Positions 37,295-38,617 of a DNA stretch of 64,000 bases are shown piece by piece (within the stretch, counting starts at the first letter, position 1; every line of letters begins with the position of its first letter). The translations under genes were made by a program, and so were the position numbers. Where the stretch lies: contig NZ_SOFH01000023.1 in the NCBI RefSeq assembly GCF_004402495.1, forward strand, positions 372,001 through 436,000. Reading direction: 5' to 3'. The notes beneath the pieces are model-generated. The model searched no databases. It was not told where the DNA came from and was given only the letters and a program-made list of their open reading frames with translations. Source of the stretch: Cryobacterium sp. HLT2-28 (GTDB lineage Bacteria > Actinomycetota > Actinomycetes > Actinomycetales > Microbacteriaceae).

Positions 37295-37636
37295 ATGATT
37301 GATCTCGCACCGTCGATCTACCGTCAACGACTGGTGATCGAGGCGTACCCGCCGGAAGCGATCAGCGCCGAACAGATCACCCGGTATCTTGCCGGACTCG
37401 CTCCCGTCCTGGACATGACCGCCCTGATCGAACCGGTGACGCACCGCAGCGACGCGTTCGGCTGGGCTGGCTGGACGCACTGGGAAACCTCGGGGGCGCA
37501 CTTCTACGCCTGGGAGCAGCCCGTTCTCTTCTACAGCGTGGACATCTACACCTGCAAGGCCTTCGATCCGCTCACTGCGGTCGAATACACGAAGGACTTC
37601 TTCGGCAGCGACGACGCCGTCTACAAGGAGTTTTGA
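37295..37636 (+). CDS. S-adenosylmethionine decarboxylase (SpeD)-like protein
   Basis: This 113-residue protein has the fold signature of prokaryotic pyruvoyl-dependent AdoMet decarboxylases: RLVIEAY (strand 1), then WETSGAHFYAWEQP and YSVDIYTCKAFDPLTAVEY. Against T. maritima SpeD, Ser66 aligns with the self-cleaving Ser63 and Cys87 with Cys83. The residue before the Ser is Thr instead of Glu, and the position of His68 is Tyr71, with a His at 69. SpeD homologues with changed sites have become ornithine or arginine decarboxylases, so the substrate is open. There is no spermidine synthase nearby. It overlaps the next gene by one base (TGATG), so the two are co-translated. Confidence 0.75.
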   Translation: MIDLAPSIYRQRLVIEAYPPEAISAEQITRYLAGLAPVLDMTALIEPVTHRSDAFGWAGWTHWETSGAHFYAWEQPVLFYSVDIYTCKAFDPLTAVEYTKDFFGSDDAVYKEF

Positions 37637-38445
37637 TGACGGATCGGCGCGTTGTTGCGGAGACCGCCGAGTTCACTGCCAGCTACGACCTGTCCCCGGA
37701 CGACGTCGGGGCGCTCACAGTGGAGCTCCTGGCCTCCCTCGCGGGGGCCTGGCCGGAGAAATACCGCTATGTCGGAATCGAAATTGCCGGTGAGAGCCCG
37801 TTCTCCAACATCGCCCGCCATATCGAACGAGTCGTGTTCGAGGCGTCCTTCGGCAATGATGCCGCCCAGATGACGGCCGAATACGGCCCGTACGAGGCAG
37901 GCAGCGTCTTCTTCGTCTCGATCGACCGCTCCACCGGGATGCCGAGCGGCGCGCTCCGGATCATCGGCGATTCCCCGCGGGGCTTCAAGACCCTCAACGA
38001 CGCCCGATCCGCGCCGTTTCACATCCTGCCGGAGGATGTGGCGGAGCAGCACGCCATCGACGACCGGGGCACCCTCTGGGACGTCGGGACGGTCGCCGTC
38101 CTGCCGGGGCACCGCAGCGGCGCGGGCGCCGTCAGCGTGCAGCTCTATCGCGCGATGTACCTCTCCGCGCTGCAGCACGGCATCGACCATCTCGTGTCGA
38201 TCATCGACGCAGTGCCGTTGCGGAAACTGGTCGACTATCTGGGCATCCCGTTCGTTCCGCTCGCAGGCTCGGCGCCCGGACCATATCTGGGGTCTCCGAT
38301 GAGCCAGGCCGTGTACTGTCATGTCCCCGACTTCCAGCCCCGGACGCGACGTCATCGGTGGACGGTGCGGGGATTCCTCGCTCGGAAGGCCCTCTCCCGC
38401 CTGGCCAGGGGCAGCGACGACGACGCGCTCAGCCTGATTTCCTGA
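37636..38445 (+). CDS. LuxI/FeeM-like GNAT N-acyltransferase, putative
   Basis: This protein is 269 residues from the ATG at 37636, with AAGGAG five bases upstream; a TTG at 37633 is in frame but less likely. The central region looks like the autoinducer-synthase branch of the GNAT fold: IERVVFEASFGND, EYGPYEAGSVFFVSID, SGALRIIGDSP, LWDVGTVAVLPGHR and ALQHGIDHLVSIIDAVPLRKLVDYLGIPF. Such enzymes join an acyl chain to an amine (AdoMet in LuxI, amino acids in FeeM). Coupling to a SpeD-like enzyme suggests that the amine is decarboxylated AdoMet or an amino-acid-derived amine (inference). A basic C-terminal helix follows. Confidence 0.65.
   Translation: MTDRRVVAETAEFTASYDLSPDDVGALTVELLASLAGAWPEKYRYVGIEIAGESPFSNIARHIERVVFEASFGNDAAQMTAEYGPYEAGSVFFVSIDRSTGMPSGALRIIGDSPRGFKTLNDARSAPFHILPEDVAEQHAIDDRGTLWDVGTVAVLPGHRSGAGAVSVQLYRAMYLSALQHGIDHLVSIIDAVPLRKLVDYLGIPFVPLAGSAPGPYLGSPMSQAVYCHVPDFQPRTRRHRWTVRGFLARKALSRLARGSDDDALSLIS

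Positions 38446-38541: not shown

Positions 38542-38617
<76 letters not shown>

Follow-up and report, generated by a model that had tools for sequence, protein, structure and literature searches.

Genetic systems that link a lipid-signal synthase to an output degrading the second messenger cyclic di-GMP (c-di-GMP) include the Rpf system of the diffusible signal factor (DSF), in which the RpfF synthase, an enzyme of crotonase fold, works with an RpfC/RpfG two-component relay and an HD-GYP output. Small amine signals are turned into a change in c-di-GMP by membrane GGDEF-EAL proteins, as in the NspS-MbaA systems of Vibrio cholerae and Sinorhizobium meliloti (PMC8967002, PMC9993111). Among the enzymes of amine synthesis, SpeD depends for its processing on S63, H68 and C83, residues treated as conserved in SpeD and in its arginine- and ornithine-decarboxylase offshoots (Li et al. 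2023, PMC10407285). The same work reports SpeD homologues with ornithine decarboxylase (ODC) or arginine decarboxylase (ADC) activity in Actinomycetota, as well as a SpeD-like domain that has lost active-site residues and does not cleave itself (PMC10407285). For LuxI, the synthase of N-acyl homoserine lactone (AHL) autoinducers, the conserved residues have likewise been listed (PMC5539150). Here we describe a two-gene unit in a 64,000-nucleotide stretch of the actinobacterium Cryobacterium sp. HLT2-28 (hereafter the window), encoding a SpeD-like protein (P1) and an acyltransferase of the FeeM/LuxI kind (P2), and its association outside this genus with a gene for a membrane GGDEF-EAL protein. 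We propose, at about even confidence, that P1 and P2 make a small, probably N-acylated signal, which the GGDEF-EAL protein senses and by which it tunes c-di-GMP.

P1 with P2 was found at about 70 loci, spread over roughly 17 families of Actinobacteria; profile searches of about 1,860 genomes extended the set of carriers within the order and the class and to at least one other class of the phylum. In family f126, for example, 29 of 115 genomes are carriers, in family f119 10 of 85, and P1 adjoins P2 in every genome found by P2. The preliminary description knew this adjacency from a single strain; the neighbourhood survey found it conserved well beyond that strain. Identity in other families is 31–36% for P2 and 56–59% for P1, and between Cryobacterium groups 61% and 84%, respectively, which makes P1 the more conserved partner. 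Within Cryobacterium, omega is 0.05–0.19 for P1 and 0.16–0.35 for P2; since both genes are under purifying selection, the pair is not a chance finding. The P2 of C. breve is split into two frames and was excluded from the P2 comparisons. At the locus L179 (genome G1234) the frames of both P1 and P2 are interrupted beside an intact-looking GGDEF-EAL gene, which suggests either a sequencing error or a pair that has decayed recently.

The first six loci compared outside Cryobacterium had one recurring neighbour, a gene for a membrane protein of 765–835 amino acids with GGDEF and EAL domains. Counted over all loci outside the genus that carry P1 and P2 on enough contig, this gene adjoins the pair at 50 of 52 (41 of 42 plus 9 of 10), a near-universal linkage to which L177 and L205 are the exceptions; the loci are not independent, many of them belonging to family f126, but they represent 16 families. 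Five loci cut at contig ends (L183, L184, L186, L204 and L212) were not counted, and genomes G331 and G910, which carry a divergent SpeD type, were left out together with second P1 copies that lack P2 (in G954 and G1023). All partner proteins compared have both motifs, GGDEF and EAL, intact. Their N-terminal part shows about ten successive hydrophobic segments in a crude hydropathy scan, and the sensor part is polytopic in the membrane, with no large extracellular domain. The three genes occur in at least four arrangements: with the GGDEF-EAL gene (P3) convergent to P2, in the order P3-P1-P2 in one direction, in the order P1-P2-P3 in one direction, and divergently. At L027 the GGDEF-EAL gene stands between P1 and P2, a weak call because the P2 there is very divergent.

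Carrier genomes have 7–42 GGDEF/EAL matches each, so that chance adjacency would be expected at about 1–3% per genome; the product over one genome from each of eight families is about 1e-13.6, a rough figure that ignores shared descent. In trees the partner GGDEF-EAL proteins fall into two or three separate clades among unlinked paralogues, and an approximately unbiased (AU) test on a quick tree, with the group defined by linkage before the tree was made, rejects a single partner clade (p 4.6e-7). Because the partners do not form one clade, the linkage was probably acquired at least twice. Simple hitchhiking of the neighbour was rejected on the several gene orders and on the AU result, and gene order and phylogeny argue for a repeated association of GGDEF-EAL proteins with the pair.

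On its own, P2 finds no match in Pfam, a weak exosort_acyl match as its only one in NCBIfam, and nothing usable among PDB sequences, viral contigs or plasmids; a P2 profile run against PDB sequences gave noise only. Across the family, 11 of 12 members match exosort_acyl (best E 1.6e-8) and two of the twelve match the NCBIfam model of the AHL synthase TraI (E 2.7e-5), while the best E value for Pfam FeeM, 0.0056, is below the cut-off. An AlphaFold2 model of P2 (mean predicted local distance difference test (pLDDT) score 65; 148 residues above 70) retrieved FeeM first in Foldseek (E 2.4e-6) and LasI at 2.4e-5, with LasI, BjaI, TofI and RpaI all within the top 20 and a SpeG structure among the lower-ranked matches. 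By hhalign, P2 aligns with Rhizobium TraI at E 1.7e-4. The predicted structure is thus a GNAT fold with FeeM and LasI as best matches, not some other fold, and P2 is best modelled as a member of the FeeM/LuxI autoinducer-synthase branch, a resemblance that the preliminary description had noted and that Pfam does not detect from P2 alone. The equivalents of LuxI F29 (Phe) and R70 (Arg) are kept and invariant, and an acidic residue stands at the position of E101.

P1 matches Pfam AdoMet_dc (PF02675) at E 3e-9, with 37.6 bits against a cut-off of 25; to the NCBIfam SpeD equivalog TIGR03330 it scores 15.5 bits, below the cut-off of 75.65. A model of P1 built with AlphaFold2 from six Cryobacterium sequences (pLDDT 70) gave class 1b S-adenosylmethionine (AdoMet) decarboxylases (AdoMetDC) of Thermotoga maritima and Aquifex aeolicus as all five best Foldseek matches in the PDB (probability 1.0, TM score about 0.54). 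P1 is accordingly modelled with the class 1b SpeD fold, whose signature had been read from the first protein of the pair before any search was made. Active-site positions were set by alignment to canonical SpeD, with T. maritima numbers counted from Ser63 and conservation taken over 54 sequences, in all of which Ser66, Tyr71, Cys87, His62 and His69 are invariant. The subfamily has the signature YGWAGWxHWETSGAHFYAW. Second P1 copies with this signature occur in G954 and G1023 (L069 and L071), among other surrounding genes, with neither P2 nor a GGDEF-EAL neighbour.

A SpeD fold might simply mean polyamine metabolism, with P1 an ordinary AdoMet, ornithine or arginine decarboxylase and P2 an unrelated or a SpeG-like polyamine acetyltransferase. 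Such an arrangement would fit the fold of P1, the ODC- and ADC-active SpeD homologues of Actinomycetota (PMC10407285) and the presence of SpeG among the lower matches of P2, but we consider it very improbable. The SpeD equivalog score lies far below its cut-off, and FeeM and the AHL synthases are the best P2 matches, well above SpeG. No spermidine synthase (PF01564) was found in the window's genome or in three other carriers, which is weak evidence, as the same search method missed P1 with PF02675 in the window's genome; a role in polyamine synthesis is unlikely given that no such synthase is detectable in that genome.

In the signalling circuit that we propose, P1 and P2 would be co-translated and would serve the biosynthesis of a small signal. 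P2 would acylate an amine or amino acid, and P1, with its pyruvoyl-forming Ser and catalytic Cys kept, would most likely supply or process the amine partner by amino acid decarboxylation. In most actinobacteria the product would then be sensed by the adjacent polytopic GGDEF-EAL protein, leading to synthesis or degradation of c-di-GMP; in Cryobacterium the sensor gene would be unlinked, and the part of sensor may fall to one or more of the seven membrane GGDEF-EAL paralogues. Four points here are inferred: P1 has decarboxylase activity, P2 acylates what P1 makes, the resulting compound serves as a signal, either diffusible or in the membrane, and the GGDEF-EAL protein acts as the receptor for it. 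The preliminary description had suggested either an N-acylated amine or a lipid signal derived from decarboxylated AdoMet. The idea of a signal is strengthened by the adjacent membrane GGDEF-EAL gene, but the decarboxylated-AdoMet version is left unsupported, because P1 lacks equivalents of H68, S55 and F49 and P2 those of LuxI R25, W35 and R104. A bolder form of the proposal, tentative and in our view somewhat doubtful, is a quorum-type circuit used across the phylum, in which a neofunctionalised SpeD that processes itself without His68 would provide an amine, the LuxI/FeeM-fold enzyme would N-acylate it to a signal of a new acyl-amine class, and a polytopic GGDEF-EAL receptor would read this signal directly in the membrane, without a transcription factor.

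Several observations weigh against the proposed circuit, the strongest being the loss of His68 in P1. Relative to canonical SpeD, H68 is replaced by Tyr71, S55 by Ala58 and F49 by Ser52, and the latter two canonical residues have roles in the enzyme. Judged by alignment, P1 lies within the SpeD fold yet lacks one defining feature, His68; with this processing residue replaced by Tyr71 it is not a canonical SpeD, and with the residues aligned to S55 and F49 gone as well it may not form the pyruvoyl cofactor. The invariant His69, a candidate substitute, lies two residues ahead of the lost-His position, on the same strand. Because His68 is lost, a non-catalytic P1 is a serious rival, albeit an unlikely one: P1 would be a catalytically silent SpeD-fold subunit, either a pseudoenzyme or a ligand-binding regulator of P2, and P2 would on its own make a lipid such as an N-acyl amino acid, for which the GGDEF-EAL protein would be the sensor. 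It counts in favour of a silent P1 that FeeM, to which P2 is closest in fold, needs no SpeD partner. The three substitutions are moreover fixed across the family, and PMC10407285 both names H68 as essential and describes a SpeD-like domain that does not cleave itself. A silent subunit would, however, fit less well with the invariance of Ser66 and Cys87, which bear the chemistry, and of His69 in the 54 sequences, with the stronger conservation of P1 than of P2 (84% versus 61%), or with the two genomes that have an extra P1 lacking P2.

P2 also departs from its relatives, with Glu64, Asn74 and Thr152 at the positions of LuxI R25, W35 and R104 (Thr or Ser in the family at the last), so that it is not a canonical AHL synthase. 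The correspondence of Thr152 with R104 was set by the WDVGT/IESSR motif, as the hhalign path is shifted there. A further point against the signalling circuit is that linkage gives no direction of information, and c-di-GMP could control the enzymes. In such a reverse flow the GGDEF-EAL protein would sense something else, and c-di-GMP or local contact would control P1 and P2, whose product would be structural or part of the envelope rather than a signal, as may hold for exosortase-linked acyltransferases. We think this improbable: besides the directionless linkage it has in its favour that 11 of the 12 P2 family members match the PEP-CTERM/exosortase acyltransferase model, but genes for exosortases, polysaccharide or export do not recur at the compared loci, where the GGDEF-EAL gene is the only neighbour recurring across families, and the sensor domain, polytopic and with no large extracellular part, would suit a ligand soluble in the membrane.

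The window's own genus also counts against the circuit, given that no GGDEF-EAL gene lies near the pair at any of the seven Cryobacterium loci examined. In this genus P1 and P2 stand as an isolated unit whose flanks are of several kinds, and their distribution is patchy, with the pair present in 4 of 36 other Cryobacterium genomes. The window's genome, a 3.7 Mb draft, has sixteen GGDEF/EAL matches, seven of which are full-length membrane GGDEF-EAL paralogues that form a clade of their own. Three members of this seven-member expansion lie close together on contig C11 (28333-36711). It is conceivable, though quite improbable, that in Cryobacterium the pair has no signalling role and is a remnant, degenerate or selfish, of the triad; the missing neighbour, the patchy distribution, the varied flanks and the split P2 of C. 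breve would all agree with this, but omega is low for both genes within the genus.

The coordinates of the features in the window are collected in Table 1. On checking the sequence, the one-base translational overlap and the ribosome-binding site of the second frame inside the first both proved real, as the preliminary description had it, and by coordinates the same overlap is seen at L010, L012 and L023. The pair is flanked on the left by a DinB/mycothiol-transferase-like gene on the opposite strand and on the right by a tRNA-Lys gene followed by an inositol-phosphatase-like gene. It was also correctly stated at the outset that no spermidine synthase or LuxR gene is adjacent: no spermidine synthase gene adjoins the pair, and no LuxR-type gene is present among the flanking genes scanned or, by inspection of the window, among the others. 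The adjoining tRNA-Lys(CTT) gene occupies 38542-38617 (-). In C. algoritolerans (L010, near 6933), homology to the window ends at 38578, within this tRNA gene, and a nitronate monooxygenase gene comes next; the end point is possibly an integration or recombination boundary.

Table 1 Features of the P1-P2 unit, in positions of the window.
Feature	Position	Strand	Evidence
P1, SpeD-fold protein of a distinct subfamily, 113 amino acids (predicted fold); start ATG at 37295, stop TGA at 37634-37636	37295..37636	+	PF02675, Foldseek, 54-sequence alignment
P2, GNAT-fold acyltransferase of the FeeM/LuxI/exosortase-acyltransferase branch, 269 amino acids (predicted fold); start ATG at 37636, stop ending at 38445	37636..38445	+	Foldseek FeeM/LasI/BjaI/TofI, NCBIfam on family, hhalign to TraI
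TGATG, P1 stop and P2 start with one common base (A)	37634..37638	+	sequence
AAGGAG, ribosome-binding site of P2 within P1, 5 nucleotides 5' of the P2 ATG	37625..37630	+	sequence
Ser66 codon TCG, counterpart of the pyruvoyl-forming Ser63 of T. maritima AdoMetDC, 54/54	37490..37492	+	alignment with canonical SpeD, conservation
Tyr71 codon TAC, at the position of the processing His68, Tyr in 54/54	37505..37507	+	alignment, conservation, PMC10407285
Cys87 codon TGC, counterpart of the catalytic Cys83, 54/54	37553..37555	+	alignment, conservation

More distant relatives of P1, all without P2, are found on plasmids of Acaryochloris, Nostoc and Halioglobus and in some actinobacteria (L056, L057, L059, L075 and L213); this distant SpeD subfamily begins with DLAPxIxRQRLxIEG and has SGxxxYxW at the cleavage site. 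The divergent type in G331 and G910 is that of the plasmid relatives. No relatives were found in phage or in viral contigs. A GNAT gene beside the Acaryochloris relative was considered as a P2 counterpart and rejected, being an ordinary double GNAT. A Leptospira interrogans plasmid has an operon (L058:7455-8321) in which speD is followed by a gene for a second SpeD homologue of 289 amino acids and then by speE.

How Actinobacteria use small molecules for quorum sensing has been little charted, and membrane GGDEF-EAL proteins have few known ligands. The conserved cassette seemingly pairs a set of enzymes with a candidate c-di-GMP receptor, which would make both testable at once. If true, the proposal would give the SpeD fold a new role, and it would raise the chemical question of how, or whether, self-processing works without the usual histidine. 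We found no earlier description of the pair or of the triad in the open-access literature, and the closest systems each share a part of it. With class 1b SpeD (T. maritima, 1TLU/1TMI) and its offshoots SpeDC and SpeDA (PMC10407285), P1 has in common the fold, the size, the pyruvoyl Ser and the catalytic Cys; it differs in Tyr for His68, in Ala and Ser for S55 and F49, in Thr instead of Glu before the Ser, in falling below the NCBIfam SpeD cut-off and in that no spermidine synthase was found. The GNAT fold predicted for P2 is common to the N-acyl amino acid synthase FeeM (2G0B), its best fold match, and to the PEP-CTERM/exosortase-associated acyltransferases (TIGR03694), whose exosort_acyl model is its best profile match, but P2 is far under the cut-offs of these families, and its partners are a SpeD-like protein and a GGDEF-EAL protein rather than an exosortase locus or a Fee cluster. 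LuxI-type AHL synthases (LasI, TraI, BjaI) resemble P2 in fold, in the F29 and R70 equivalents and in the acidic residue at E101, whereas P2 has Glu for R25, Asn for W35 and Thr or Ser for R104, and lacks a neighbouring LuxR gene. As a functional precedent for a GGDEF-EAL protein that senses amines, NspS-MbaA comes closest; it differs in working through a periplasmic binding protein, with polyamines that are imported or secreted, and in having no linked SpeD/acyltransferase pair, while the sensor of the triad is a polytopic membrane domain. Rpf/DSF resembles the triad in that a lipid-signal synthase is genetically linked to a c-di-GMP-degrading output, but its crotonase-fold synthase is unrelated and its signal passes through a two-component relay to HD-GYP. 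Signal synthases with a linked c-di-GMP output are a known kind, whereas the P1-P2 enzyme pair and its linkage to a GGDEF-EAL protein are, as far as we found in the open-access literature, new.
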